DNA of 64,000 nt from Owenia fusiformis (taxonomy: Eukaryota; Annelida; Polychaeta; Sabellida; Oweniidae). Numbering within the stretch: the first letter of the stretch is position 1; the number at the start of each line of letters is the position of its first letter. Shown here in pieces: positions 1,611 through 62,401 of the stretch. The notes beneath the pieces were generated by a model. It searched no databases and was not told where the DNA came from. It was given only the letters and a program-made list of their open reading frames with translations. The stretch is from positions 9,389,278 to 9,453,277 of the forward strand of contig CAIIXF020000008.1 in assembly GCA_903813345.2 (NCBI GenBank), given 5' to 3'. The translations under genes were made by a program, and so were the position numbers.

Positions 1611-2421
1611 AAATCAATATTTTTGGTTGAAAGTCAAAGGGACTTGGGTCCTTCATTTAAATATGTAAGCACAATTGCCCTAATGCAGTTAGAAAACAAC
1701 AGTCATAAGAAAACATCATCCTATACAGTCAATGATCATAGACAAAAAACATTGTCAAATGCTCACTGTCCTAACCCAGTAGTCAGGAACCATCATTCTA
1801 AACAGCTAGATCATTGAAACTACCCATATACAATGGAATTCAGCAAATGTTTCTCTCTATGATTGACATTGTGGATTGATAAACTTTTTTGAATTTAATT
1901 TCAGTTTTTGATTGTTCTTGAATGTTATTTGTAATTTTTGACTGTTTGGTAATTGCTCAACATCATATTTGAAAAGAGCTTGCCTAGTGCAACCAGGAAG
2001 TTATATTATTTTGACAAAAACCTCTTAACATTTTAAAACTCAACTTATACATGCATATTTGAATGGACTCGATAAGCATAAAGTATTTTGGGTCATCATG
2101 CCTGATACAACCAGGAAGTTTTATTATTTTGCTGAAGCTATGGGGATTATGTTATTGGTTGCTCATACATGTACATTCCATTTTTATGATCCTTGCAGTT
2201 TATATGCAATCTAGATGAAATAGAGTAGGTGATTAATTCAATAGACCCACAAGGCCCATCTAGATCTGTCAGTCGCTACAGAAAAGTGTGCTGTGAATAA
2301 TGTTTTATATGTTGTCCTTCATAGAAATAGAAGCTGATATAGGAATAAAGTAGAAATGAATATGTGTTTCCATTTACCTAATAACCAGTGTAAGTATTTT
2401 GTGCACCTTTGTAGACTAGAG

Positions 2422-4197
2422 ATGCTGCTGTATCACTCGATGCTGCTGGTGCTGCTTGCAGTAACACTACCAGGACATAATGATGCTTCAACGGTAGGAC
2501 CCACCACAGCTAAGGCAACTACATTGAAGCCAACAACAATGAATCCAACTCCAGTTAAACCTACTACCGGGGGACCAACAACAACCTCAATTATTGATAT
2601 TTGTCCAAAAGGATGTAGGTGCCCTCCTATGGGTATTGATAAAGTGGTCAACTGTTCTGGGGCAATGTTACAGGATGTGCCAATTGGTATACCTAATGAC
2701 ACTACCATACTTGATTTAAGTTTCAATAACATAACAAAATTGATTGGAAAGAATTCTGCTCTTGCAAATCTAAGCGAGATGAGGTTGCTGTATATAAAGA
2801 ACAATGCTTTGAACACTATTGAAGCAGGTGCTTTTGAAGGTTGTAGAAATCTGAGTGAAATTCACTTTAACAACAACATTTTGAGTAACAATGGAATCCA
2901 ACCAGGTGTTTTTAATGACACTGCTGATGAAATGGGAAATTTGTATTTTGAGGGAAATGAAATGAATGAAAATATAAGCGCTGAAATGTTCAAAGGTATA
3001 AAATCAATTGTTGGACTGTTTTTTTCAAACAACAGTTTTACAGTGTTGAAAAGGGGCATGTTCAAATATACCAATTCGCTAAAGGTTGTTACTTTTGTGG
3101 GGAATCAGATAAAGACCATTGAAGATGGTGTGTGGAATGACATTACAAGTCTAACATCTTTGGACCTGAGTTTAAATGATTTTAGCAGTCTCTCCTCTTC
3201 AATGTTCAAAGGCCTGATAAATTTGGATCAGTTGTCTATTCAGTCATGCTCCCTTGTGAATGGTATCGAAGATGGTGCTTTCGAAGATATAGTGAACCTC
3301 AGCTACCTTATTCTAGAAAATAATGGCTTGAGCAAACTCTCTCCTAATTTATTTATAGGTCTTGCTCAATTGACAGAGCTTTGGTTGTCTGGCAATGCTA
3401 TAGAAGCCATTGATGGTATGGTGTTTCAATATTCCCCATCACTCGAAACAGTTCTTGTCAATGGTAATTCTATATCTCAAGTCACTGGCTCCATTCAAAA
3501 TCTGACCAAACTGAAACTGTTTGATCTTAAAAGTAACAACATTAAAACCTTGAGAGATGGTTTCTTCCCCAATAATGTCACCACTAATCTGACCATAGAT
3601 CTAACTATGAACCCTCTTCATTGTAATTGCTTCCTTAACTGGATTGGTAAAATGCCAAATGATGTGACTGTCCAAGGTATATGTGAAACTCCTCATAAAG
3701 TTAGTGGTAGGGATATATCTAAAGTGGGTAAATCTGAGTTTGTTTGCTATAAGCCAACTATCACTTCTATGACTGATAACCTTACAGTCAGTGCTGGTAG
3801 TAATGTAACAGTGTCATGTTCAGCAGAAGGGGACCCTCTTCCCACTATTATTTGGCAAGCAAGTAAAATTGGTGTACGTAAAGTAATTGGGCCACCATCG
3901 GACGACTCTTTGTTGTCTAATGACGGCAGCCTTACCATCACAAACTTTAGCCAAGCCTATGAAGGGAATTATACATGTTCTGCCATTAGCTCTCTCACCA
4001 GCAATTCTTCTGTTAGAACACTTACAATAAGAATTGGTTCCCATCCCTCCTCCAGTACATGGAATTTGACATATGGTCAGTTTGTTGGCAGTGTTATTGG
4101 TGCAGTTCTTGGTACATTTGTCCTAACTGTTGTTGTCTTTCTCATAATACAGTACTTCAGGTCTAAGAGGAGAGCGGGTTATGAACAGTCAATATAA
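2422..4197 (+). CDS. LRR-Ig transmembrane receptor 1, mucin-like N-terminal stalk
   Basis: This is a 591-residue type I membrane protein, probably a cell-surface recognition or adhesion receptor. Domains in order: signal peptide (about 1-22), short Thr/Pro-rich stalk (about 23-58), LRRNT cysteine cap starting CPKGCRCP at residue 61, roughly 11 leucine-rich repeats, LRRCT cap (NPLHCNCFLNW, about 396-445), one Ig domain (VSCSAEGDPLP ... NYTCSA, about 449-541), a single transmembrane helix (about 554-579) and a 12-residue tail ending AGYEQSI. I chose the ATG at 2422 rather than the upstream in-frame ATG at 2356. The acceptor TTGTAG|ACTAGAG ends at 2414, is shared with both paralogs, and leaves this ATG as the first codon followed by a clean signal peptide. 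Many NxT/S sites suggest glycosylation. The tail has no catalytic domain, so signalling would need a partner. Ligand unknown. Confidence 0.9.
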   Translation: MLLYHSMLLVLLAVTLPGHNDASTVGPTTAKATTLKPTTMNPTPVKPTTGGPTTTSIIDICPKGCRCPPMGIDKVVNCSGAMLQDVPIGIPNDTTILDLSFNNITKLIGKNSALANLSEMRLLYIKNNALNTIEAGAFEGCRNLSEIHFNNNILSNNGIQPGVFNDTADEMGNLYFEGNEMNENISAEMFKGIKSIVGLFFSNNSFTVLKRGMFKYTNSLKVVTFVGNQIKTIEDGVWNDITSLTSLDLSLNDFSSLSSSMFKGLINLDQLSIQSCSLVNGIEDGAFEDIVNLSYLILENNGLSKLSPNLFIGLAQLTELWLSGNAIEAIDGMVFQYSPSLETVLVNGNSISQVTGSIQNLTKLKLFDLKSNNIKTLRDGFFPNNVTTNLTIDLTMNPLHCNCFLNWIGKMPNDVTVQGICETPHKVSGRDISKVGKSEFVCYKPTITSMTDNLTVSAGSNVTVSCSAEGDPLPTIIWQASKIGVRKVIGPPSDDSLLSNDGSLTITNFSQAYEGNYTCSAISSLTSNSSVRTLTIRIGSHPSSSTWNLTYGQFVGSVIGAVLGTFVLTVVVFLIIQYFRSKRRAGYEQSI

Positions 4198-7692: not shown

Positions 7693-9143
7693 ATTTGGTC
7701 AGAGGACTCGTGCTCAAAAAGGGATTTCCTCTATTGCAGCTGAATTCAGAAGGCTGCCATTTGGGTTATCAGGAGTCTTTTAGTGCAATGTTCATCAATT
7801 GATCAACTTTGAAACTAGCAGATATCTGCAGTGTTAATTCAGTTGAGCAAAACATGAAAATTTGGGCATGCCTTTTGCACTGGTATTGAAACTGCATGCT
7901 TTTCAAATTTCATTATTCAAAGGGGACTTAAAAGAGAGGGAGACTTTTGGAATTTACAGGTATGCCTAATATGTGTTTAGAATTCTTTATCAAATATAGA
8001 GACGATGTCTCTCTAAAGAACTGGTCACTCTATGACAAATATTCCACACTGCATTATACACCAGGTGTCACAAGATATATGTGTATTTATATTATACTTC
8101 ATATATAGACTATACATATTTTTACAGTAAGATTTGGAAATTATAGACCAATTTCCTTATTAAGTATGTTGTCCAAACTTATGCAATGTTGAAAGACCTC
8201 TTGAAAAAGATGAATGAAATATTACATAAGATCACATTTTTTACATTGGTTATAAAGACTAACAAAGTTCTGTATTGCATCTAGACATGCTAGATAACAT
8301 GTTATTGTAAATTGTGTACACTTTAGTTGCTCTGCAACACAATTTGATATGGACACTGATATGACCACTTTGTAAGGGTGTAGAGTGCAAATGTTTTGTA
8401 TGTTCTGATATGTTATATTATGAAATAAATGTATATGTATGAGATAAGCCAACCAATGTGTTTGTAGTGTTAACTATATATCCTATGTTTATATTAAACT
8501 GCATCTGTTTTACAGAATATAGACTTCTCTGGATATAGCTGCATGTGTGTGTATCCAGCATGTATATTTTGATGTATATACTAGTATATGTTTCAGTTAT
8601 TTTGATAATTGGAGTGTGTAGTGATGGATTCGATAACCACAGACACGGTAAATATATATACTTTTGTGTACACAAATAACCAAAAAAGGCTACCTCAGTA
8701 CCTTACAATGATGTAGCTAGCAAGATAAAAGTGACGAGGCAAAAAATATTAGGAAGAAAAAAACGATGAGATCCAAAATGATGGCTATGTAAATCAGTCA
8801 GAAATTTGAACATTTTTTCGTTGGAAATATGAAGGTAAAGTAATAAGTAAAACACCATAAGACACGATCTTGGTTCGATGATGGCAATAGAACACGATGA
8901 TAACCCTTACATGATGAGATTGTGCACTATGGATCAAAAATTGATGACTCAAAACTTCATTAATTTCGGAATATTAAGATCTTCAAAAAGCTTGTCTCGT
9001 CTGCCTCATCCTGGCTATGCTAGAGCCTTATTATGAAATATCTATTAAAACAAGAGTAACATTTTCTATATCAATTGATTTAAATGAAAGAAACCCTAAA
9101 CAGTGAAGTTATGCACATGATGTCTTATGAAATGTAATTTCAG
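7693..9143. other. Upstream of RNase T2; missing first exon not located
   Basis: This AT-rich stretch should contain, or lie within an intron after, the first coding exon (signal peptide) of the RNase T2 gene. The first mapped exon begins mid-codon (phase 1). A short ATG-to-donor piece at 8625-8648 ends in the wrong phase. No convincing exon was found. Confidence 0.4.
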
Positions 9144-13065: not shown

Positions 13066-13962
13066 GTAAGATCACAACACTTATATTTCTTTAATTTTGA
13101 TTTTATTTATGAGTTTGATTGGTGTTAATGATGTTTTTATGTCTCAATATTATACTATTTTTGTCTAAGATCCTTTCAAAATTGTGTAGGAAAATTAACC
13201 CGTATTTTTACAAAGTATTTTTTATCAATCTTCCTTAATATTAAGGAAATTACATATTTATATTGTAGTATATTGATTATCATGATCAAGAGAAGGAACT
13301 TATGAAATTAAATAGCCAAGGAGTTTCCTCATAAAACATTAAAGAGCAAATAAAAAGAGCACCGAGTGTACTTATGAAACTCTATACCCAAATGTATCTT
13401 TGTTCGGATATTTGAATGCAGTTTTCTGACTTGTTATTGTTAAAATTACCAAAATAAAAAGAAATAAAGAAGGCACAAGATGTTCTCATAATCAACAACA
13501 GAGTACTGTAGACCTTTTAAAAATATTGTCATACTGAACATGCTTTGCAAGGATCGCATGTAAAGAGTATTGGTTTGGAGAAACGAAAGCAGTGTCTTTA
13601 TCATTTATAGTAGTTTTATGGTATACTGTGCATGTTATGTTTCTTTGCATTGTCATCCATTTGTGACTGTTCTACTGTAAAATAGGATAATCTGGCTAGT
13701 TTCCACTCTGTCACATGAGGCATGTGACCATGTCGTTTTAACTAACATTTTAAAAATGTGACATTACTTTTTTAAGAAAAGATTATCTGAAAACCTATGA
13801 TGAACAAATAACAAATAATGTAAACTATGTCAACATTCTACAAACATGAGACACCAGCATTGTTCCTCTTTTCCTGGTTTGTATGTTTTTATTGACATTG
13901 GATGTCATACTTGTATTTTTCCATCCGCTCAGTCATTTATTGTATTCTCTGTATATTTGTAG
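13066..13962 (+). other. Intron 1 of LRR-Ig gene 2
   Basis: The donor is GTAAGA at 13066 and the acceptor is TTTGTAG ending at 13962. The interior is AT-rich, with no repeat or exon recognised. Confidence 0.55.
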
Positions 13963-13969
13963 ACTAGAG

Positions 13970-16252
13970 ATGTTGCGGTATATGTCTATCACGATTGTGT
14001 TGCTAGCACTTATGCTACCTGGACATGATCTGAATGTGATAATAACTTGCCAAAACTGTCCCCCACCTACAACTACAGTTAAACCAACCTCAACCGAATC
14101 AACTACAACAAATCCTATGACTACTAAAGCATGGACATCAACATCAATACCAACAACAGCAACTGTTACATCAACTACAAGAGAACCAACTACTGCTAAA
14201 ACAACTACTGTGAAATCTACAACTAGCGAACCGTCTACGCCATCACCAACCACTGTTAAAACAACTACAGTGAAACCTACAACTAGCGAACCGTCTACGC
14301 CATCACCAACCACTGCCAAAACAACTACAGTGAAACCTACAACTAGCGAACCGTCTACACCATCACCAACCACTGTTAAAACAACTACAGTGAAACCTAC
14401 AACTAGCGAACCGTCTACGCCATCACCAACCACTGCTAAAACAACTACAGTGAAACCTACAACTAGCGAACCGTCTACGACATCACCAACCACTGTTAAA
14501 ACAACTACAGTGAAACCTACAACTAGCGAACCGTCTACGCCATCACAAACCACTGTTTTGTCAACTACAGCAAAATCTACAACTGTTAAAACAAGTACAG
14601 CTACTACAACCATGGCTCCTACTACTGAAGGATCAACAACACCAATTGGTGATGTATGTCCAAAAGTATGTAAGTGCTCAACTAAGCATCGTGAGAAAAT
14701 TGTAGATTGTTCTAATGCAATGTTGCAGGATGTCCCAAGGGGAATACCTAAAGATACCAACATACTTGATTTAAGTTCAAATAGCATAACAGTATTGAAT
14801 GGAACTAATTCTGCGCTTAAAAATCTACCTGAGCTAAGATTGCTGTATATAATGAGCAATACTTTGACCATTGTTGAAACTGGTGCCTTTGAAGGTTGTG
14901 GAAAACTGAGTGAGATTCATTTCAGCAACAACTCTTTGGGTAACAATGGAATACAGCCAGGTGTTTTCAATGACACTGCAAATCATATGTATTATTTGTA
15001 TTTTGAGAGAAATGGTATGAATGAAAATATCAGTGCTGATATGTTCAAAGGTATGAAATCGATTGAAGGAATTTATTTTTCGTATAACAATTTTACAATG
15101 TTGAAAAGGGGCATGTTCAAATACACCAATTCACTCGGCGATGTTCGATTTGAGTACAATCATTTGAAAACCATTGAAGATGGTGTCTGGAATGATGTCA
15201 CAAGCTTAAGAACTATGGACCTCAGGTTTAATGATTTCAACAGTCTTAACTATCAAATGTTCAAAGGCCTGATCAATATGGATCAGTTGTATATACTAAG
15301 ATGCCCTCTTGTTAATGGTATTGAAGATGGCACTTTTCAAGATATGAGAAAGCTCACTTTCCTAACGCTAGAGGGCAATGGGTTGATCACACTTTCTCCT
15401 AAATTACTCCAAGGTCTTGCTCAGTTGAGCACTCTTTGGTTGTATGGCAATGCTATAGAAGCTATTGATGGTTCAGTGTTCCAATATTCCCCATTGCTCG
15501 AAACAGTCCTCCTCTGGGATAATGTTATTTCTCAAATTACTGGCTCCATTCAGAATCTGAGAAACTTAAAAGAATTTGATCTTAGTGCCAATGCAATCAA
15601 AACTCTAAAAAATGGCTTCTTTCCCAATAATGTCAAATCAGATCTCACCATTGATTTAAGAAGGAATCCTCTCCATTGCAATTGCTTTTTCAACTGGACT
15701 GCTATCCCTAGCAGATCCAAAAACATAACCGTCAAGGGTATCTGTGTGACACCAAGTAAACTCAGTGGTAGGGATATAGCTAAAATTAGCAAATCTGAGT
15801 TTGTTTGTCATGCGCCATTTATCACATCTGTGACTGATAACATCACAGCCAGTGTCGGGAGTAATGTGACTGTCTCCTGTACAGCAGAAGGTGACCCTCT
15901 TCCCACTATTGTTTGGGAAGGAAGCAGCATTGGTGTACGTAAAGTAATTGGGCCACCATCAGATGACTCTTTATTGTTTAATGATGGCACCCTCACTCTC
16001 ACAAACTTCAGCCAAGCTTATGAAGGGAATTATACATGTTCTGCACAGAATGATCTTGCCACTTCTATGAAAACAATTACTGTAAGAATTGGTCCAAATC
16101 ATTCATCCAGTAGATGGAAAATTACATTTTGGCAATTTGTTGGTTGCATCATCGGTGCCATTCTCATTACGTTTGTTTGCACTTCTATTGTGTTCCTCAT
16201 CATTTGGTACTTCAAGGATAAGAAGACTGCTGGTTATCAATTAGCAAACTAA
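13970..16252 (+). CDS. LRR-Ig transmembrane receptor 2, long mucin-like stalk
   Basis: A 760-residue type I receptor, paralogous to the genes at 2422 and 24761. Layout: signal peptide (about 1-22), very long Thr/Ser/Pro stalk (about 32-224) containing six 20-residue repeats, LRRNT from residue 230 (CPKVCKCS), about 11 LRRs, LRRCT (NPLHCNCFFNW, about 565-614), one Ig domain (VSCTAEGDPLP ... NYTCSA), transmembrane helix (about 722-747) and a 12-residue tail ending AGYQLAN. The start at 13970 follows the shared acceptor at 13962; the upstream in-frame ATG at 13883 is intronic on this model. The stalk should be densely O-glycosylated and would hold the LRR head away from the N-terminus, not from the membrane. 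It probably acts at the cell surface in recognition; ligand unknown. Confidence 0.9.
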   Translation: MLRYMSITIVLLALMLPGHDLNVIITCQNCPPPTTTVKPTSTESTTTNPMTTKAWTSTSIPTTATVTSTTREPTTAKTTTVKSTTSEPSTPSPTTVKTTTVKPTTSEPSTPSPTTAKTTTVKPTTSEPSTPSPTTVKTTTVKPTTSEPSTPSPTTAKTTTVKPTTSEPSTTSPTTVKTTTVKPTTSEPSTPSQTTVLSTTAKSTTVKTSTATTTMAPTTEGSTTPIGDVCPKVCKCSTKHREKIVDCSNAMLQDVPRGIPKDTNILDLSSNSITVLNGTNSALKNLPELRLLYIMSNTLTIVETGAFEGCGKLSEIHFSNNSLGNNGIQPGVFNDTANHMYYLYFERNGMNENISADMFKGMKSIEGIYFSYNNFTMLKRGMFKYTNSLGDVRFEYNHLKTIEDGVWNDVTSLRTMDLRFNDFNSLNYQMFKGLINMDQLYILRCPLVNGIEDGTFQDMRKLTFLTLEGNGLITLSPKLLQGLAQLSTLWLYGNAIEAIDGSVFQYSPLLETVLLWDNVISQITGSIQNLRNLKEFDLSANAIKTLKNGFFPNNVKSDLTIDLRRNPLHCNCFFNWTAIPSRSKNITVKGICVTPSKLSGRDIAKISKSEFVCHAPFITSVTDNITASVGSNVTVSCTAEGDPLPTIVWEGSSIGVRKVIGPPSDDSLLFNDGTLTLTNFSQAYEGNYTCSAQNDLATSMKTITVRIGPNHSSSRWKITFWQFVGCIIGAILITFVCTSIVFLIIWYFKDKKTAGYQLAN
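14221..14580 (+). repeat. Six 60-bp tandem repeats coding the mucin stalk
   Basis: Six consecutive 60-bp units, each starting AACTAGCGAACCGTCTAC, differ at only a few positions. They encode TSEPSTPSPTT(V/A)KTTTVKP. Near identity suggests recent expansion, and copy number may vary between alleles. Confidence 0.95.
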
Positions 16253-23399: not shown

Positions 23400-24744
23400 A
23401 AAAATACAATGTTTTAAATCAAGTAACTTGTCAAGCTTATCTTGCTTATCACGAGAAAAGAGGTTCAACAGTTTGTACATCAATTGACATAAAAATTAAT
23501 ATGGATGTGAACATTGTGACCTAAGAAACATTATACCCTTTCAACTGAAAGGTAGAAACTTATGTTACGATTTCATCCAAAATAAATGGCCTGGTATTGT
23601 GAAAACCTGAGGCCCAGGAATGCGTTAAAAATGTTTAAAAGGTCCGCTAGTGTACTGAGTTTTTAATGCGTCGGTGTATACATGTATATTATACTTTACT
23701 AAATTATAAACATGTAGGCTTATAAGAATAAGAATAATTTTTATAAGCTTAATGGATAAGAATAAGACTGATTTTTTTTTATTAATGACAGTATACCCGG
23801 GCTTCAGGTGAAAACCCCTTTGGGCTTGGAATGGAAAATTTACTAATTGATATAGTTTCTGTTCTTGTTATTGTATCATGGACACGGTTGATTTGAAAAG
23901 AATTATCTGAGATTTTTTTTGAAAAACACATTCTGGTTTAGAGATGTTTTTAATCCCCAAATTATCTAATGTTCTAGCCCCAGCCTTCATTTTCAGCGAA
24001 CTCTTATTCTTTGGCACAATTCTAATTTATATCGTCTTGGATGTATACATTATTGTTTGACATGTTTGATACGATTGTGTAAGACTGAGGCAAGTAGAAC
24101 TTGTGACCACGAGGTACTCAAATCACATTCCAACACACATTCGAACTATGATAAGTATTTAGAAGACTGACAAATTCTTTATGTTAATCATTAATAGTCA
24201 CACAACAGAAGGTTATTTAAGATTGGTGGTTAATCTCAATATTGTATATAAATGACATCTAATTTAGTACCGGAAGTAAAGCGTATTTTGTTTATCAAAT
24301 TCAAAAATATCAAAAATATGATAATTTCTAATTAATAATATAAGTAAGCAATAATCTTACAGTAACAGTACTTCTCCAACGCCATGCCATTTATTTATTT
24401 ATCCTTTGTGTGATGTGTTTGATAACCTTTGCGAGCTTTTTACCTTTACTATTATGTGTTCGATTGACAGATCTTGTCATTCTTGTGTTTTCTTTGAAAT
24501 GTTCTCTGCTTTGGTTTAAATGTGATTTTTAACATTGTTTTCTTGGTTTTTTAGACATGCATCAAGTCTCTGGACCAAATCCCCCCTCCCAACTTACCTC
24601 CCTTACCCCATGGGCACATGTGGAAGAGATGTTTCGAGGAGCATAACTCAAAGGGACTTCAAGCACTCGATTTTGTGATCACATCAGAAATAAAAATGTT
24701 TCCATCTGCATAATAACTATTGTAATATTTTTACAACTTTGTAG
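23400..24744. other. Remainder of LRR-Ig gene 3 intron 1
   Basis: AT-rich, no exon recognised. It ends with the acceptor ACTTTGTAG at 24744, the same acceptor sequence as in genes 1 and 2. Confidence 0.45.
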
Positions 24745-24760
24745 ACTAGAGCCACTAAAG

Positions 24761-26611
24761 ATGTTGCTGTATCACTCGATGCTGCTGGTACTTCTAGCAG
24801 TAACGCTACCAGGACAAAATCATGCTACAACGGCAGGACAAACCACAGAACAGCCAACTACAATGAAACCAACAACAGTGAAACCCACCTCAATGAAACC
24901 AACAACAGCTGATGTAACTACTACCAAACCAACTACATCAAAACCAACTTCATCGAAACCAACTACCATGGCTACTACGGAGGGACCAACAACAGGCCCA
25001 CCATTGGTTCATCTTTGTCCAAATGGATGTAATTGCTCATCCATGGGTGCCGATAGAATTGTCAACTGCACTAAGGCCATGTTACAGGATGTGCCTATGG
25101 GTATACCTAATGACACTACTGTACTTGATTTAAGTTATAATAACATAACGAAATTGAACGGAACCAATTCTCGTCTTGCAAATTTAACAGTGTTAAGATT
25201 GCTGTACATAATGAACAATACGTTGAACACTGTCGAAGCAGGCGCTTTTGAAGGTTGCGGAAAACTAAGCGAAATTTACTTCACCAACAACTCACTGGGT
25301 AACAATGGAATACAGCCAGATGTTTTCAATGACACTGCGGACCAAATGGGTTATTTGTATTTTGAGAGAAATGGTATGAATGAAAATATCAGCGCAGAAA
25401 TGTTCAAAGGTATTAAAGCAATTACAGGACTTATGTTTGCAAATAACAATTTTACAATGTTGAAAAAGGGCATGTTCAAGTACACCAAGTCACTTACGGA
25501 TGTTCGTTTCGAGTACAATCATTTGAAATCCATTGAGGGTGGTGTTTGGGATGATGTTCCCACTTTAACAGTTATGGATCTAAGGTATAACGATTTCAAC
25601 AGTCTTAAGTACCAAATGTTCAAAGGCCTGAAAAGTATGCTTAGTTTGCATATACTTAGGTGTCCTATTGTGAATGGTATTGAAGATGGCACTTTCCAAG
25701 ATATGACAAAGCTCACTTTTCTCACTCTGGAAAGCAACGGTTTAAGTAAACTCTCCCCTGATTTACTTCAGGGTCTTGGTCAGTTGAAAACTTTACGGTT
25801 TTATGGTAATGCCTTAGAAGCTGTAGATGGTTCGACGTTTCAATATTCCCCTTTGCTCGAAGATGTCGCCCTGTGGGATAATGATATCTCCCAAGTTACT
25901 GGCTCCATTCAAACTCTGACCAATCTGAAAGAATTTAGTCTTGCAATCAATAGAATCAAAATCTTGAAAGGTGATTTCTTCCCCAATGTCACCACTCCTC
26001 TGTCCATCGACATTAGTAGGAACCCTCTCCATTGTAATTGTTTCTTTAACTGGACCAGCGGGATGTCGAAAAACACAACGGTTAAGGGTAACTGTGAAAC
26101 TCCTCGTAAAGTTAGTGGTAGGGATATATCTAAAGTGGGTAAATCTGAGTTTGTTTGCTATAAGCCAACTATTACTTCTATGACTGATAACCTCACAGTC
26201 AGTGCTGGTAGTAATGTAACAGTGTTCTGTGCAGCAGAAGGTGACCCTCTTCCCATTATAATGTGGAAAGCAAGTAAACTTGGTGTTACTAAAGTAATTG
26301 GGCCACCATCGGATGACTCTTTGTTGTCTAATGATGGCAGCCTTACTCTCACAAACTTCAGCCGACCTTATGAAGGGAATTATACATGTTCTGCCCTTAG
26401 CCCTCTCACCACCGGAAGTCTTGCTGTAAGAACAATTACTATAAAAATTGGACCCAATTCCACGCCCAGTCCATGGAAAGTGACGTATGGTCAGTTTGTT
26501 GGCAGTGTCGTTGGTGCAGTCCTTGGTACATTTGCTTGCACTGTTATTGTGTTTCTTATCGTTGGATACTGTAGGGCTAAGAAAACAGCAGGGTATCAAC
26601 AAACAATTTAA
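24761..26611 (+). CDS. LRR-Ig transmembrane receptor 3, mucin-like stalk
   Basis: A 616-residue type I receptor. Signal peptide (about 1-22) nearly identical to gene 1; Thr/Pro-rich stalk (about 23-80) built of TTxKPT-like units; LRRNT from residue 86 (CPNGCNCS); about 11 LRRs; LRRCT (NPLHCNCFFNW); Ig domain (FCAAEGDPLP ... NYTCSA); transmembrane helix (about 579-604); 12-residue tail ending AGYQQTI. The acceptor is at 24744 and the first ATG at 24761, after a 16-nt exon lead. The LRR part resembles gene 2 more than gene 1. The LRRCT-Ig junction is almost identical to gene 1 (KVSGRDISKVGKSEFVCYKP). This mosaic pattern points to sequence exchange between paralogs. Confidence 0.9.
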   Translation: MLLYHSMLLVLLAVTLPGQNHATTAGQTTEQPTTMKPTTVKPTSMKPTTADVTTTKPTTSKPTSSKPTTMATTEGPTTGPPLVHLCPNGCNCSSMGADRIVNCTKAMLQDVPMGIPNDTTVLDLSYNNITKLNGTNSRLANLTVLRLLYIMNNTLNTVEAGAFEGCGKLSEIYFTNNSLGNNGIQPDVFNDTADQMGYLYFERNGMNENISAEMFKGIKAITGLMFANNNFTMLKKGMFKYTKSLTDVRFEYNHLKSIEGGVWDDVPTLTVMDLRYNDFNSLKYQMFKGLKSMLSLHILRCPIVNGIEDGTFQDMTKLTFLTLESNGLSKLSPDLLQGLGQLKTLRFYGNALEAVDGSTFQYSPLLEDVALWDNDISQVTGSIQTLTNLKEFSLAINRIKILKGDFFPNVTTPLSIDISRNPLHCNCFFNWTSGMSKNTTVKGNCETPRKVSGRDISKVGKSEFVCYKPTITSMTDNLTVSAGSNVTVFCAAEGDPLPIIMWKASKLGVTKVIGPPSDDSLLSNDGSLTLTNFSRPYEGNYTCSALSPLTTGSLAVRTITIKIGPNSTPSPWKVTYGQFVGSVVGAVLGTFACTVIVFLIVGYCRAKKTAGYQQTI

Positions 26612-53311: not shown

Positions 53312-56300
53312 CTACCTACAGAAGTGTGGTATAGATGTCTCCACTTTCTGACGCTTGCGGGATGACATGCCTTCAAAGAATTCTTTGATGTCTTCTTGCC
53401 GGACAACCTGAAACAATGAATTGAATGGCTTGACATGTAGAGTGTCCATATAAGAATATTGGAAAGATGCAAACCTAGTTTTCAATGGATGATTTTTTGT
53501 AATGTGGAGTAATGTACAAGTCAAAGAAACAAAGGACTAATGAGATATTCCAACCAGGACTCTAAGAAATGCATATTCTTTATTTACCTTGCCATTTTCT
53601 GCAAACTTTTTCAGATAATCACTCAGTTCAGTCTTCAGATCATTGTAACCTAAAATAAATGAAACATTTTCATCTTCCTGTCAGTCAGGCAACCTTTATT
53701 CAGTTATTGTTTGCTACTTAAATTTTGGTTGTACTTACATAAATGTAATTTTTTAAAAGAAACTCGAAAAAGATTTCAGTTTAATTTTCAGCCAAAATCA
53801 ACACACTGTGAAAACAGCTTGATGTACCAAGACACACAATGAAAAATATCCCCCATTTAAATTCAGAACTGAACTCAAGATTTTAGTGAGGGCAAAATGG
53901 GAACACAAAATGGTAATTGTAAATTGGTATAAAGATTCCAATGCACAATGTAGTATTCACTGAGCTATGATCAATCAAAATAGTTCTACTTCATATTGAC
54001 TTACCATGAAGCATTTCCACTTGTTTACTTCTATCCATACTTGAGAGAACATTCATTCCACGCTCGTATTGTGAACCACCATGCTTAGTGCGCCCTCTTT
54101 CTTCATATGCTAGAACTGTGTCTGACTGATCTGTCAGAAACTGCACTTTTGCCATGGTGTACATTTCCTGAAAACAATTATTTTGAAATTATATTTCAAC
54201 ATTTGTTCGCACAATACAATGTTGGCAAAGGTTACAATGACCATTACTCTCTCATGAACTGTTAAACAAAAATTGACCCTACTCTATGTCGCAAACAAGG
54301 CATAAAATGTAACCACCTTATAAGATATTGGGATTGGTTATAAAAGTTAAACAATTTAAGCAAAGTGGAACAAACAGTAGCTATAACAATGTATCACCAT
54401 TTCTTGGTGGTGAAAAAGAACTTCTTTTGAACCTTCAAAGCATTGCTATTGCTCAATGCTTTTTTTCTAAAATTATTCAATCAACAAACCTTGCATGATG
54501 CACATGTACAAAGCTTTGATCTCCATCCATCCTTCCAGAATGTTGCACAGTTTTTCACTTCAAATTTTCTGGTGGAAAGTTCCCCATATTTACATATACT
54601 TCCAACTGAGGTATCCTCAGCAACAGTACTGTCATTTTTATTTACTGGAATGTCATTAGAAGCACCATTTATCTTTTCCTCTTTTAGTGGAGTGTCATCT
54701 TCACTCGTCACATTGAGTAATGGTTCTACTGTTGGTGCAGGCTGTACTCCATCACTACTAGTACTGCATTTTGTCACCTGGAAGTGCAGAACATAATAAT
54801 GGATTGAAGCACATGCATCAATACATTAAATATAATATGCACTGAAGAATTTCTTAGAAGAAATTCAGATGAACTGGGTAGACTCTTAACAGACACTTAA
54901 AAATACTTGACAATTTCTTCATGGGATGAACTTACCTCCTCTGTCTTAGGAACACTTGATTCGGGGATATCAGCTGTATTTGTTGCCTCCTTCACTGGAG
55001 ATACTGTGTCCACATTGACACTTACATCCTGGGTCTGCTGGCACATCTTGCTTGTAACTGTAGATATAAATATTTCATGTTATAATATCCGACTTAAGTT
55101 TCATAAAATATTTCTTGATATAATACAGTGTGACACAAAAATGCCACCCACTATTTTTGTAATAACTTTCTCATGATTTGTTATGTAGACAGTGTTCAGT
55201 GGAAGGTTGGTATGCTTGCACAGCATCAACAATTTGGAAATAAGAGATATCTTATTTTCTGCAGAGGCATGCTCTGTCACACAAGGCATTAATGTGACAA
55301 AATGTCACCACCTAGTTGCTCATGATATTATTAGTTCAATCTTAAGTCAGTTTTGAATTTCTGAGAACTTGTAGATGATTTTGAAAAAACAAATTGGTCA
55401 ATTTGAACCAAGTTGAAAAAGACCTTTTTGACCTCTCTTAACGCTTTTTTACCTTGAAAATGTCATTGAAGGTCAAATCTTAAATATAAAGTCAGATTTG
55501 AACTTCTGAAAACCCGCCGATCGCCAACCATCACCACAAAAAATGGAGACTATTACAATTTGTCACCCTTTTTGATTGTGACATAAAAATCACTCAAAAA
55601 TGTAAAATAGAAAATCTGTGATTTTTAAATTTACACAATAAGCGAGTCAGTTAATCCAAATCATTTGAGAAAAATGGGTAGATATGATATATTACTGATA
55701 ATATATGTAAAACCAATCCAGAAATGACTCAAATAATGCTAACACAGACATCCCAATTTCAGAAAATTGTATTTTTTAACATTTTTTGATGATTCCACTG
55801 AGAGCATACCTGGACAGAAAACATGAATATGTTCTCATTCCTTGGTAGTGCCATAAACATAATTCAAAACGTAGAGTACAGTAGTAAGTTTTTAATGCTT
55901 TTGTACCTGTGGATTGCACTGTGTATGCCCAAAGGAACTCATGTTTAGCCATGCAGTCTTTACAGATCATCTCCTGGAAGATATCAGTGTCAGGTGGATC
56001 CCTACCCAGATGCTGCAAAGAATTACAGTATAAATCAGCAGAGGCAAATGTCAAAATGAGGATAACAAGGCATTAACATGCAAAATGTCACTACCTGCCA
56101 TTTGTTACAGATGCAGAATGCGATCCACCAACCATTGAACAGCAACCGCCCAATGCCTTCACAAAAGGTTGGAGACCATAACAATATGTCATCACGAAAA
56201 GTGGTGACATAAAAACAAAACACATATATAGTTAGTTTATATCAGAATTAAAGATTACACAAACCTGAAATACATGCTCCAATTAAATCATGAATAAAAT

Positions 56301-59300
56301 TTTACGTACACTGGGAGAATGGACAACAGTTTGAGTACTAAATGTCTAAATGATGTAATTCAAGACTTAATTGGTGTTTTTCCAAAATATAGGAGGGGTA
56401 ATTACTTCTATGTTATCAGTATAGAGTTGTGAGGTATTATGAGATATGAAGGGTGTTACTGAAAATTCCTCAGCCCATTTTTGAGAAAGATTAGGTTATT
56501 TTCGAAAAAACAAGGCCTATTTTTTCTAACTGAAGCTGAAGTTTCCATCCCATCCACTGGATCCATCAGATACACCATCACTCAAAACAAGGACCCCAAG
56601 CAAGTCTAGAATAAGATTGCTGTTTTGACAAGGGAGATGAGGGATATTTGGGAGAACATATACATAATATATAGTTCTAGAGTTATACATGTTCGATAGA
56701 TAGGATTGTATCTTACCCTACCATGGTACCAGTCCTCACATATCACACACTGAATCATCTCATCTTCTATCTAGAACAAAGAAAAACAGTTAAAACCACA
56801 TAGAAATAAAATTATAGATCCCCAAAATATAGTATTATTTCCCTAATTCATGCAACTGTATAGAATATTCACATTTCTTATTTTTATCTTATTTTTTTAT
56901 TTCATTAAAACATAAAAACATTTGTACATATTTGTGGCTGTGACATTTATTGTAAATAAATACCCTGTATTTGGTGAAGACTGAAGAGAGTGCAAAACAT
57001 TATATTATTGTACTTACACTATCATCATGATCTGGGTATGGCCTGTGACATGTACAGTAGAGACCTCTATAGTTCTGATTATAGCTGTTATCCTCATTGA
57101 TTGCACATTTTTTCTGCAATAGTTACAAAGGGTAAGATGCGAAAGAAATTATAGGATATCCTATGATTTTGAGGAATATCATTTTTATCTACGAGGTGAT
57201 ATTGATATCTGCACGAGAGAGCAAAGCGATAATCGCTATTACGATATCCCATTTTTTCTGCAATAGTTACAAAGGGTAAGATGCGAAAGAAAACTATATT
57301 ATTTGGGGTATTACTCTCAAATTGGGATATTCAAAATTATTTATTATTTGTGTTACAGATAAGACATTCTAAATGGATAGTTGTTTGGATAGTCAAATGG
57401 GTAATTAAATTGTACATCATATAGTGGTAAATAAATGAAATCATTAGAGATTACATTGATAGTACCATGAAAATGCATGTGAATTCTGATCAATATCCTT
57501 TGAAACATCTATATTTAATAATGATACTTACTGGAGTAAGTTTGCATTCAAAGTTTGGGAACTTGCTATTTCCACAGTCACATCTGAATTCTCTGTAAAA
57601 ATACAAAAAATAAAAATGGTTAAGAATAGCAGACTACATATTTTATTTTTCCAATATTTATTTTGATATTTTACTTTTATCAGCCTCTGTTGCAAATGCA
57701 TACTGTTATAGACTTACAAGAAATTTCTTCCAACATGATTGATCTATCATTTTTCAGCTGAAAGCAGACAGATTTTCCAGGAAATGTACAACTAAACAAA
57801 AAAGTACCTTTTTGTGTATAACTCCAAGAGATCATGTCCCTCATGGCATACTAGACAGCAGGCAAGGCACATTCCAGCAGGACCATTAGCATCACTTTTA
57901 CATGTTACGCATGAGTAAACAGCTTGCCGTGGTATGTAGCCCTGTAGGAAGACATTGAAAAATAAAGATAATGCTATCATAGATGGTAAGATAACAAGCA
58001 ACAAATGACCATTACTGAGGTAAAAATGGCACAATACAGTGGCCTCATGTGGTGAGAAAAGCTGACTTCTTCGAACAAAGCAGAAGTAAAAGCCATGGCC
58101 AATGGTGTAAATGATGATTACATAGGCTCACCATGTGTGAAGTGGCTTGATATTGACAGGCAATAATTTTATGAAGGCATGAACTCAAGAGAAATCCCAA
58201 GAACGGCAAGATGTAAAGATACACAGATAGTGGGACTCTTTCAACTACGAGGCATTAGCATACAAAATGTCACAAGCAAGTACAGTACTGTCATTTGTTC
58301 CAAACGCTGACCACTGCATGCCAAATGCTGACCACCAAACACCATCCACAAAACAGTTGGAGATTATAACAATATGTCACCACTTGGGGTGATGACATAA
58401 TAAGCTAATTATATACACTTGGTTATGAAAGTCAAACAGCGACGCATGGAGTTACTTCGTCATGGGGCTGTTTGACCATGGGGTAATTCCGACATGCTTA
58501 TAATCTCAATCTTCGCAATATATTGAAATCTCCCATGGCTGAGATCTTAATCCAAGATGGCTGAAGGTCAATGTTTGAGTTTGGAATTTTTAATCAGTTC
58601 TCATCAGAGTCACATGTTATTTTCAGGAATAAATATCTCGTTTCATATACAGTCTTCATCTTTCACATTTGCTCAAAGAGTGCACTAATGTACTTAGAAA
58701 AGAGTGTGGAGAATATTTTGTAAAATGTATGAAAAATTAGAAAATTCAGTGACCTACTTTTTAAAAGTGCAAAATAAGTCACTTTATTTTCTCATTTTTT
58801 ATACATCTTATGCACATGGTCAAAGTAGCCCCACAACGAAACCCTTTTGTAGCACACTATCATCATGATGATGTAACAGTGTAAATGGCTCCCTCTGGAA
58901 ATTAAGAGTAATGTCCATATTAATAATCTGCAAAAGACTTGTCTAATAAAAATTTAAATATAATACGCTGGAAGACTAGTAATTGATCGTCAAGACAGTT
59001 TTTGCTTGGAAATTTACGTAAATCTCCAGTGGGCCCGGGCCCCCCCTTGGGTGGGTAATTTGGGCAAAAAAGGCCTTTTGGCCCCCAAAAGTGGGCCTTT
59101 TTGGTCATTAATGGTGCTTTTAAAGCCTTACTTTTTAATTTCAGGCCAAATTTTAAGGAAAATGAGCCTCAAATTTTCCACTTTTGCGTTTTAGGGGCCC
59201 AAAAATTTTTTTATATGGAATTTTTTTTCTCTGACCCGAAATTTGAGCCCACCTCTTGTTGGATCCCAGATCTGCCCCTACCTGCCCTAGCCCTACCATA

Positions 59301-61903
59301 CCAATGGCAGGGGGGGGTTCTAGGAACCAACAAGGGGGGGGGGGCTCAAATTTCAGGTCAGATAAAAACACTTCTGCGCTCGCGCAGAATTTTTTTTCAA
59401 ATTTTGAGGCCCATTTTCTTCAAAAGTAGGACTGAAATTGAAAATAAGGCCCAGTAATGACCAAAAAGGCCCACCTTTTGGGCCCAACCAAGGAGGGGGG
59501 GGGGGGGGCGGGCCACCATTGCATGATTGCCATTTACTGAACACAGCTGGCTCAAAAGCCAGCTGACAAACCGTTAAAATATACCGTCTTGTGAAGTGGT
59601 TTTCTCCAACTTCCAGCAAGGGCGCTGGAATAAGAAACGGTATTTAAGAAGATAATTGAATGTAACTTGCCCTTTTCATGACGAGTGGTGACAAAAAGTC
59701 CCACTTTGTGTGTAATTGCAGTTAAAGTGGAGAAATTCCAGATCTGGCGCGCACCATTTTTTAACTTTTTGCACATGCATGCTCATGCGCATTGTACTTT
59801 TTATCCCCATGGGTATTACCGTTCAAAGATCACGTGACTATTCATATTTAGCTAACGCGAGTTATTTTGTAGCAAATTTTTACTTTCGAAAGTCATGAGA
59901 TCTTGCGAGACCTAAAATGGCTGGAATCTAAATTCAAAAGTTTTGTTGTCTAATAGAACATTGATTTACTACAACAACAGACTGTTGAAGGAACAAAATA
60001 AGGTAACAACAAATAAATTATGTATTGATTCAAATATATAGCGTATTATAAACGCTACTCAGCACAGCGTTTAGTCAAAATGGGCTCGATTTATTCTCTT
60101 CAAGTACACAAACATCTAACTTCCCAGAGCTGACTTCTGTCAGCTCGGTAGAGTAAGATGCCATCTATTTTCCATTAATATGGAAAAAAAAGTCAATTCA
60201 ACAAGAACAACCCACATGCTATCTATTGCAAGACTTACGCCTGCCACAACCGTCGCCATGTTAATCAGTGTTTTTAAGTAGCGCAAGGATCCTGCAATGA
60301 CCGTGGTAGTGTTAACGTGTAAGCCTGGTATAACCTTGACAGGCTGGCATAACCGTGACAATGCTGTATTATATTGCAAGGCATGTCATGACCCTGGAAG
60401 TGTTATCGTGGAAGCCTGGCGCGACAGTAGCCTTTATTGTGGTTTATAAGCGAATGTGAATATTAATGTATAGTAGTAATTTTGATTTTGACATGATTAA
60501 GGTAGTTAAACACCATGATCATAGTATTAAACTGTTTAATTGTAATGACGATCACTTAAAATTGTTAAGGATATTCCTGGCATTAAAGGGGCAATAAGGA
60601 CTGTAGAGAGAAAATTCGAAAATTTTTATTTTTTCTGAGCTATCAGGTCAATATTTGGCTTAATACCTTCTTTGATATACCTATTTTCATAAAATGTATG
60701 TATAAACTATCAATTTCAGCATTAAGAAGTGTAAATTCAATTCAAAGCTTCTATAAAGGGAGTCCCACTTATAGATTTTTAAGATCCACCATGTTTCAAG
60801 AGGAATATCAGCTGAAATAATGTTCATCCAGAGGGTTTCTTTGTAGATAATGAAAATATATGTTAGTCTTGATGAAATATCCAAACCTAAATATATTTTG
60901 ACACTTTTCGATGATCGTTGAATGGCCCCCCTGCACTATTTGTAGCACCTTTAATGTCATACATATTTACTAGTCATTGCAATACATTATACATGTAATG
61001 GTCATAGTAGGACTAAGCCTAAATTTCTACATTACCACCCTTATACCTGGCCTTGCAATACTATATTACAATGTCACGGTCATACCAGGCTTTGCGATCC
61101 CATAATACATTGTCACGGTCATGCCAGGTTTTCAAATACACATTGTCACGGTCACTTACAGTATAGCAATCATAAATTTCTACATTACCACTCTCATACC
61201 CGAACTTGGAATACTATATCACATTGCCACGGCGGTCATACCAAGCCTTGCAATACTATATTACATTGCCACGGTCATGCCAGGCTTTGCAATACACATT
61301 GTCACGGTTAAAGCAGTCCTAATCGTAAATTTCTACATTACGCTCTCATACCTGAACTTGCAATACTATACTACATTGTCACGGTCATGCCAGGCCTTGC
61401 AGAACTATATAACATTGTCACGGTAATGCCAGGCCTTGCAGTACTACAGTATATTACATTGTCACGGTCATGCCAGGCCTTGCAGTACTATATTACATTG
61501 TCACGGTCATGCCAAGCCTTGCAGAACTATATTACATTGTCACGGTCATGGCAGGCATTGCAATATAATACAGCATTGTCACAGTTATACCAGGCTTTCA
61601 CGATAACATTACCACTGTCATGGCAGGATCCTTGCGCTACTTAAAAACATTGAATAACATGGTAACGGTTACGCAAGGCGTTAGTCTTGCAACAGATAGG
61701 GTCGAACAACCTTATTTTGAACTGATAAAATGGCAAAGAAGTTTTAGCTAAATCACCATCAGATATGTGCAGTTTTTGTCATCACTATCTCCTAACACTG
61801 CAGTTGCATCTTCTTCTAGCTTATTCTCTTCTTCTAAGACGTCTACCATGGATATATGGTCATCAGGTTCGACTTTTTCAGCAATATTTTTGGCGCTTTC
61901 CAT
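53312..61903 (-). CDS. UBR7-like E3 ubiquitin ligase (UBR box + PHD-type finger), 11 exons
   Basis: A complete gene model of about 442 residues (human UBR7 is about 425). Exons in transcript order, all GT-AG and phase-consistent: 61903-61757, 57941-57808, 57592-57532, 57113-57018, 56770-56717, 56012-55907, 55057-54936, 54777-54490, 54167-54005, 53649-53588, 53407-53312. An acidic N-terminus (SMVDVLEEENKLEEDATAVL) precedes the UBR box (YSCVTC ... GMCLACCLVCHEGHDLLEL ... RCDCGNSKFPNFECKL). The PHD-type finger follows (YCTCHRPYPDHDDS ... EMIQCVICEDWYHGRHLG ... MICKDCMAKHEFLWAY). The variable acidic middle (exons 7-8) leads to a conserved C-terminal part (CASCK ... YEERGRTKHGGSQYERG ... FFEGMSSRKRQKVETSIPHF). 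UBR-box proteins bind N-degrons. Mammalian UBR7 is reported to act on or bind histones through its PHD region. Intron 1 is 3.8 kb and full of mobile DNA. Confidence 0.92.
55264..55590. repeat. TGTCACCAC-family element, long copy (UBR7 intron 6)
   Basis: Starts near GGCATTAATGTGACAAAATG followed by TCACCACC, and ends TACAATTTGTCACCC...TTGTGACATAA. The interior 55330-55400 matches 1361-1430 in reverse. The short copies (about 145 bp) lack this interior and may be its deletion derivatives. Confidence 0.55.
56071..56215. repeat. TGTCACCAC-family element (UBR7 intron 5)
   Basis: Begins GGCATTAACATGCAAAATGT and ends AATATGTCATCACGAAAAGT followed by GGTGACATAA, so the ends carry short inverted TGTCA(C/T)CAC repeats. 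Confidence 0.65.
57106..57292. mobile_element. 101-bp insertion flanked by a 43-bp direct repeat that copies the exon 4 acceptor of UBR7
   Basis: 57106-57148 and 57250-57292 are identical over 43 bp. The copy at 57106-57148 spans the 3' splice site and first 8 nt of UBR7 exon 4. The 101 bp between them (57149-57249) matches one arm of the hairpin at 20847. The upstream (distal) acceptor copy therefore duplicates a functional splice site. Confidence 0.85.
58251..58401. repeat. TGTCACCAC-family element (UBR7 intron 1)
   Basis: Begins GGCATTAGCATACAAAATGT and ends AATATGTCACCACTTGGGGT followed by GATGACATAA. Same layout as 56071-56215. Confidence 0.65.
58402..59021. other. UBR7 intron 1, nothing recognised
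   Basis: AT-rich intronic sequence. No exon or defined repeat is supported. Confidence 0.4.
59022..59525. repeat. Head-to-head pair of GGATCC-family elements with G runs
   Basis: Two related halves in opposite orientation. The left ends with TTGTTGGATCCCAGATCTGC; the right begins CAGGGGGGGGTTCTAGGAAC with CAACAAGGGGGGGGGG. Both contain 'ggcccaaaa'/'aaggccc' blocks shared with 11340 and 29625. Open frames here are repeat translations. Confidence 0.6.
59526..60218. other. UBR7 intron 1, middle
   Basis: No exon recognised. Mixed composition with some GC-richer patches near 59730-59780. Nothing more supported. Confidence 0.35.
60219..61699. mobile_element. 1.48-kb element: long inverted ends built of a 39-bp tandem repeat
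   Basis: The left end CTATCTATTGCAAGACTTAC pairs with the right end TTAGTCTTGCAACAGATAG. Pairing continues through GTTTTTAAGTAGCGCAAGGA followed by TCCTG. Inside the arms and across 61020-61600 there is a tandem unit of about 39 bp (ACATTGTCACGGTCATGCCA followed by GGCCTTGCAGTACTATATT). 39 bp is 13 codons, so it gives a fake repetitive open frame (61121-61644). Its right end lies 57 bp from UBR7 exon 1. Confidence 0.75.
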
Positions 61904-62147
61904 TTTCTTTTCAGTTTTGTTTATTTCCTGGAGTCAAACATTCTGGTAATTATATATTTTACAGTTTTTTTTATCTTTATTTGATGAAAAATTCATAATG
62001 ACAATTCATGAATCAAATATTCTATTAAATATACATTGATATTAAGATAAATAACTCTGAAGTATGTATGATATTCATATGTTGAAGTATTTTTGTTTGA
62101 CCTACATTACTATCTTGTACTACTCGAAGTTCAGCTTGGTATAAAAC
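61904..62147. promoter_or_regulatory. Putative bidirectional promoter, UBR7 / H3-like gene
   Basis: 244 bp separate the two divergent start codons. It is AT-rich, with no CpG island, no clear TATA at a useful distance and no obvious histone-gene elements. Either transcript may have additional 5' UTR exons that I cannot see. Confidence 0.5.
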
Positions 62148-62234
62148 ATGGCGAGAACAAAACAGACAGCGAGAAGATGGGGTGGTAATAGGCGTAATAG
62201 GCCACGTAAGCGCCCAAAATCCAACCAAAATAAT
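62148..62234 (+). CDS. First coding exon of an H3-tail protein (candidate divergent H3 variant / cenH3), partial
   Basis: The ATG sits in a good context (AAAACATGG). Translation starts MARTKQTAR: after Met removal, residues 1-8 equal canonical histone H3 (ARTKQTAR). Position 9 is Arg, not Lys, and position 10 is Trp, not Ser. The rest is strongly basic and unlike H3 (GGNRRNRPRKRPKSNQ). The exon ends in phase 0 at AAT|GTAAGT (62234/62235), after 29 codons. An alternative donor GTAAGC follows 62205. No histone-fold exon was found before the window end (1.77 kb), so the identity is open: a CENP-A-like or other H3 variant with a replaced tail, or a non-histone protein mimicking the H3 tail. K4 and R2 are kept, so H3K4 writers and readers could act on it; the K9/S10 marks cannot exist. 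It is head-to-head with UBR7. Confidence 0.65.
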
Positions 62235-62401
62235 GTAAGTACCGAAAATAACCTCGTTTGAATGTATGAAGTGATTTTGGAAGATATTCGTTAATGAGTT
62301 TCAAGCTAAAATGTGAATCGCCAAGACCAATTTCAATTTTTGCAAATAATGATATGAAATATTGTAGATCTAAAATACTGCTAAAATCATAGGCCGCGCC
62401 T
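62235..62401 (+). other. Start of the H3-like gene intron
   Basis: Begins GTAAGTACC. AT-rich, no exon seen. Confidence 0.4.

Follow-up and report, generated by a model that had tools for sequence, protein, structure and literature searches.

The H3-tail exon and its divergent neighbor

Which protein is opened by an exon that begins exactly like histone H3 and stands head-to-head with UBR7 in the genome of Owenia fusiformis? The exon lies near the end of the window, i.e., the whole stretch of 64,000 nucleotides analysed here, and the features of the locus are collected in Table 1. Re-reading of the sequence bore out the description given in an earlier note: an exon start reading MARTKQTAR in a strong start context, a closing GTAAGT, departure from H3 after R8 (R-W), and UBR7 on the other strand 244 bp away. 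The start context of the ATG is AAAACATGG, and the ATG is the first Met of its frame, because an in-frame TAA stands two codons upstream. Removal of this Met, which precedes Ala, would leave the H3-like sequence at an accessible position, as is characteristic of H3-tail mimics. Residue 9 of the exon peptide is Arg, as opposed to Lys9 in H3. When the 29-residue peptide was searched against the genome, the single match was the exon itself. One basic segment resembles an AT-hook by eye; Pfam listed no AT-hook in the first 121 residues of the gene model at E values up to 10 (HMMER filters apply).

Table 1. Features of the exon locus and of related sites (window positions unless a contig is given)
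Feature	Position	Strand	Remarks
Exon 1 of the proposed PPC-domain gene	62148..62234	+	Encodes MARTKQTARRWGGNRRNRPRKRPKSNQNN; ends in phase 0
H3-tail-identical segment MARTKQTAR	62148..62174	+	H3 residues 1-8 after Met
Basic stretch RPRKRPK	62199..62219	+	AT-hook-like by eye; no AT-hook listed by Pfam
Predicted splice donor GTAAGT	62235..62240	+	
TATAAAA motif	62140..62146	+	By eye; 1 base between its end and the ATG
Shared upstream region, UBR7 ATG to exon ATG	61904..62147	.	244 bp, 24% G+C
UBR7 exon 1 (MESAKNIAEK...KNCTYLM)	61757..61903	-	244 bp between its ATG and the exon ATG
UBR7 exon with start of UBR box	57801..57950	-	zf-UBR, E=8e-8
UBR7 exon match, end of UBR box	57532..57621	-	Match to human UBR7
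UBR7 exon match, first part of PHD-type finger	57015..57122	-	Match to human UBR7
UBR7 exon match, PHD-type finger, IEDEMIQCVICEDWYHGR	56717..56770	-	Match to human UBR7
UBR7 exon match after the finger	55914..56015	-	Match to human UBR7
Exon 2 of the PPC gene model	C8:9455987-9456262	+	Outside the window
MARTKTTKRK zinc-finger-like ORF	C4:5197974	+	L028

The identity of the neighboring gene as UBR7 is secure from sequence comparison. Six exon matches, PHD-type finger included, were obtained with E values of at most 2.2e-6 each, the query being a partial human UBR7 sequence, which also gave two weak matches elsewhere in the window (E=0.35 and 0.37). The head-to-head spacing hints at co-regulation of UBR7 with the gene of the exon; it does not show that the two share a function. 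UBR7 as a partner of the H3-like N-terminus is likewise only a hint. According to one report, UBR7 binds H3 in human cells, and its PHD has been proposed to contact the methylated tail (PMC9560165); a second source describes the interaction of the PHD with trimethylated histone peptides in human cells as weak (PMC6438984).

Search for a histone fold and detection of PPC domains

The earlier note had offered two readings: a divergent, possibly centromeric, H3 variant, with its histone fold further downstream, or an H3-tail mimic. The exact match to H3 residues 1-8 is what the first of these has in its favor, but no histone fold was found in the same gene. When H3 and CENP-A were run by tblastn against the window and the 27.8 kb that follow the exon, nothing rose above noise apart from the tail: the next-best H3 match scored E=0.66 and contained stops, and CENP-A reached E=2.2 at best. 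The histone-fold exon that the note proposed to look for thus did not appear within this stretch. A genome search with PF00125 produced at least 74 matches, and the nearest of those listed lies on the same contig, C8, about 364 kb away (100 candidates scored). Another contig carries, at about C6:14552.5-14554.1 kb (L005), a split H3 that is divergent and differs in its tail; from the features such proteins are known for, we regard it as a candidate cenH3. Given the lack of a fold in the 27.8 kb searched, the candidate cenH3 elsewhere and the PPC exons that follow in phase, we rejected the exon as part of an H3 or cenH3 gene, and the variant reading is now hardly credible.

Downstream of the exon, the + strand codes for PPC/PCC domains. 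A splice model forced to start at the exon runs through ten exons and, with the stop counted, spans 1,301 letters; its junctions are all in phase 0, except that between exons 5 and 6, and its intron 1 measures 4.5 kb. Exon 4 may begin either at L001 8706 or at 8778. With the former (the longer form), a Pfam scan of 930 of about 1,324 model residues placed PF03479 above the cut-off in two stretches (E=1.4e-41), the membership of exon 1 hanging on the splice model. PF03479 was matched three times genome-wide, each time at this C8 locus, which is the sole locus matched. The PPC1 domain is similar to bacterial single-domain PPC proteins (best E=5.1e-15), and the C-terminal part of the model is rich in Arg and Ser and contains Asn/Met/Gly repeats. 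An unrelated protein downstream, which the earlier note had named as an outcome that would speak against its proposal, is therefore what the forced splice model yields.

Exon 2 starts directly after an in-frame TAG and therefore needs an upstream exon. We consider it probable that the H3-like exon fills this place and opens the coding sequence of a gene paired divergently with UBR7, whose product of about 1,300 residues would have two PPC/PCC domains and an H3-tail mimic as its N-terminus. The PPC gene could instead start at another first exon, in which case the H3-like exon would be a short stand-alone ORF or an H3-tail remnant. Rival phase-0 first exons are indeed present at L001 5695/5752/5830-5865, as three nested ATGs with a common donor at L001 5865 that scores 6.81, compared to 4.23 for the donor of the H3-like exon. 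When the latter is read unspliced through its donor, an in-frame stop follows after 37 codons. The adjacent TATAAAA, if it were a working TATA box, would place the ATG outside the mRNA, and H3-tail remnants are known elsewhere in the genome (e.g., at C10:13670417). Yet the exon combines a strong start context with a GTAAGT in a phase that fits exon 2, its sequence after R8 is not that of H3, unlike that of the C10 remnant, and its synonymous codon differences from H3 genes (see below) oppose a recent copy. An exon outside the PPC gene is the rather unlikely alternative.

Frequency of the H3-tail start in the genome

Occurrences of the H3 start in the 498-Mb genome were compared with the expectation of an order-2 Markov model, for which the window and further fetched loci served as training data. 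For MARTKQTAR, 1.1e-7 sites are expected per window and 0.0009 per genome, as opposed to 21 observed; 19 of these are H3 genes, assigned by a 98-100% match to the 44-residue H3 tail, and the other two are the present exon and a Rho-type GTPase ORF on C1. The shorter MARTKQT occurs 23 times versus 0.42 expected (the 19 H3 genes and four others), and MARTKQ 26 times versus 7.1 expected (the 19 and seven others). Two of the four non-H3 MARTKQT sites are members of a single zinc-finger-like family, one of them in decayed form. The nine-residue match is thus far beyond chance, as the earlier note had held, whereas MARTKQ outside H3 is no more frequent than chance predicts.

The exon could still owe its start to coincidence, its likeness to the H3 tail being accidental or without function. 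The seven non-H3 MARTKQ sites, three of them in short closed frames, agree with such a view, as does an expectation of 0.42 sites for MARTKQT. This explanation is nevertheless quite improbable in view of the two MARTKQTAR sites outside H3. Moreover, the controls were empty for the longer exact patterns: the backward sequence gave 0 sites for MARTKQTAR and 0 for MARTKQT (2 for MARTKQ and 1 for MARTKxTxR), and the seven-residue pattern, once scrambled, did not occur at all (0.35 sites expected). The Rho-type ORF, in addition, keeps its resemblance to H3 up to about residue 18 (E=0.005, small set).

The codons of the tail were also compared. Those of the exon differ from the H3 genes of the tandem arrays at four of eight positions (Met included), from the gene at C8:35969665 at six of eight and from a C9 gene at four of eight; between the exon and the Rho-type ORF, six of nine codons differ. 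All of these differences are synonymous. Because the residues are identical while the codons have diverged synonymously, the comparison suggests selection on the peptide, either by long retention or by convergence, rather than recent insertion of an H3 sequence.

Several further sites were examined and rejected. The three sites that match no further than MARTKQ (on C2, C7 and C8) sit in short closed frames; MSRTKQTTR at C4:30688523 and two non-ATG matches (C5:13719135 and C11:7295936) all run into stops within 20 codons. The C10:13670417 site (L011) is an H3-tail fragment of 28 letters whose frame was read with no histone fold behind it, and C10:14608612 and C10:7893011 appear from their scores to be H3 fragments. 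For comparison, MSGRGKGG, the start common to H4 and H2A, occurs at 38 sites, each of which, judged by position, falls within a tandem histone array or next to a histone match; there is thus no sign in the genome of H4 or H2A mimics with this exact start.

The H3-like start on other proteins

The mimic reading of the earlier note is not only supported but widened, as H3-like starts also occur on unrelated ORFs. The Rho-type GTPase ORF (C1:6878789, -, L004) opens with MARTKQTARASKGKMPQKNIKLVVVGDHSSGKTALL, and its tail and P-loop are encoded in one exon. A stop lies 11 codons upstream of its start, with no earlier Met in between; the first exon opens with MARTKQTARASKGKMPQK and is followed by many further exons (G000:C1:6870000-6878789, -). 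Pfam identified Ras (E=6.7e-40) and Roc (5.8e-18) in the 500 residues scanned of a partial 688-residue model.

The second group consists of multicopy zinc-finger-like ORFs, several copies of which are decayed. At C5:31973876 (-, L007), a 358-residue open ORF begins with MARTKQTVRK and shows zinc-finger-like Cys/His spacing by eye; DUF6058 was its only Pfam match and fell below the cut-off. A search with its first 100 residues brought up 12 further genomic matches, four of them with an in-frame stop. A C7 array (5726429, 5727335 and 5728261, -, L012) shares 35% identity with the C5 ORF over 78 positions (E=1.8e-18), the identity figure being taken outside the first 12 residues. Two copies of this array start with MARTK-stop-TARKNN, and the third with MACAKQTARKNN (MACAKQTARK type).

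The looser pattern MARTKxTxR occurs at 34 sites, comprising 19 H3 and 15 others, and nine of these 15 read MARTKTTKR (cf. the C4 ORF in Table 1). Three of the nine were read: one has an open ORF of 321 residues, weakly related to the C5 ORF (E=0.001), in which a C2H2-like finger can be discerned by eye, and two close after 36 and 10 codons, respectively. The sequence TATATAAAG stands about 35-40 bases before the ATG of the C5 ORF. No polymerase or integrase was noticed on inspection of the multicopy ORFs by eye.

We tentatively suggest, as a possibility somewhat short of even, that the H3 N-terminus serves in this species as a portable tag on unrelated proteins, i.e., the PPC protein, the Rho-type GTPase and the multicopy zinc-finger-like ORF family. 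If so, a GTPase as well as PPC and zinc-finger proteins would be direct targets of H3K4 writers, erasers and readers, which mobile ORFs may in turn exploit.

Proposed function and relation to known systems

Residues 1-6 of H3 form the footprint of H3K4 readers and enzymes. If the PPC gene is expressed and spliced as modelled, Met removal would expose A-R-T-K-Q-T-A-R, which duplicates the free H3 end and leads into a basic stretch. This end could be bound or modified by proteins that act on A1, R2 and K4 of H3, such as PHD-finger readers, K4 methylases and demethylases, and R2/R8 methylases. It might thereby tether the PPC protein to K4-type complexes or, alternatively, compete with nucleosomal H3, and the PPC domains may form oligomers and bind partner proteins in the manner of plant AHL proteins. 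Because Lys9 is replaced by Arg, the mimic should be of the K4 type and not of the HP1/K9 type, and K9 readers should not bind it.

SNAG-domain proteins, e.g., Snail with LSD1, are a familiar case of nuclear proteins whose N-terminus imitates the H3 tail. The SNAG domain, however, is only loosely H3-like, whereas all eight residues are identical here. To our knowledge, the H3 mimics described so far are either such loose N-terminal imitations or short K9-type motifs (for the latter, cf. PMC9768651). G9a, GLP and ATF7IP resemble the present case in having an H3-like motif on a non-histone protein, which is methylated and read like H3; in contrast, their motifs are internal and of the K9 type, rather than a K4-type free end with K9 changed to Arg (PMC9768651).

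Like the plant AHL proteins, the modelled protein carries a PPC domain after a short basic N-terminal stretch, and AHL PPC domains interact among themselves and with further nuclear proteins (PMC8096963). It differs from them in its two PPC domains, its length of about 1,300 residues and its H3-identical N-terminus, as well as in lacking a Pfam AT-hook, the feature expected of an AHL member (first 121 residues, E up to 10). The single matched locus also contrasts with the 29 AHL genes of Arabidopsis (PMC8096963). The bacterial proteins matched by PPC1 (PDB 2hx0, 2nmu and 2p6y), by comparison, are small single-domain chains without an H3-like N-terminus.

A literature search for H3-tail mimics, animal or metazoan PPC/DUF296 proteins and the string MARTKQTAR, with most subscription papers and preprints outside its scope, found no paper on such proteins. 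If an exact eight-residue H3 end is indeed carried by a PPC protein and a Rho-type GTPase, and close copies of it by zinc-finger-like ORFs, H3K4 signalling would extend beyond nucleosomes. Antibodies to the H3 N-terminus may then detect other proteins in such animals.

Other features of the window and of the histone loci

Tandem histone arrays, whose units measure about 6.4 and 6.8 kb, were located at C8:9815557-9873725 and C11:19688695-19738689; the former stands about 364 kb from the exon locus. Within the window, imperfect repeats of the type CACGGTCATGCCAGGCCTTGCA...ATATTACATTGT were seen by eye at 60950-61640, in the region of UBR7 intron 1. Three large single-frame ORFs on the + strand (2338-4197, 13850-16252 and 24647-26611) appear by eye to encode LRR-Ig membrane proteins with Thr/Pro-rich stretches.
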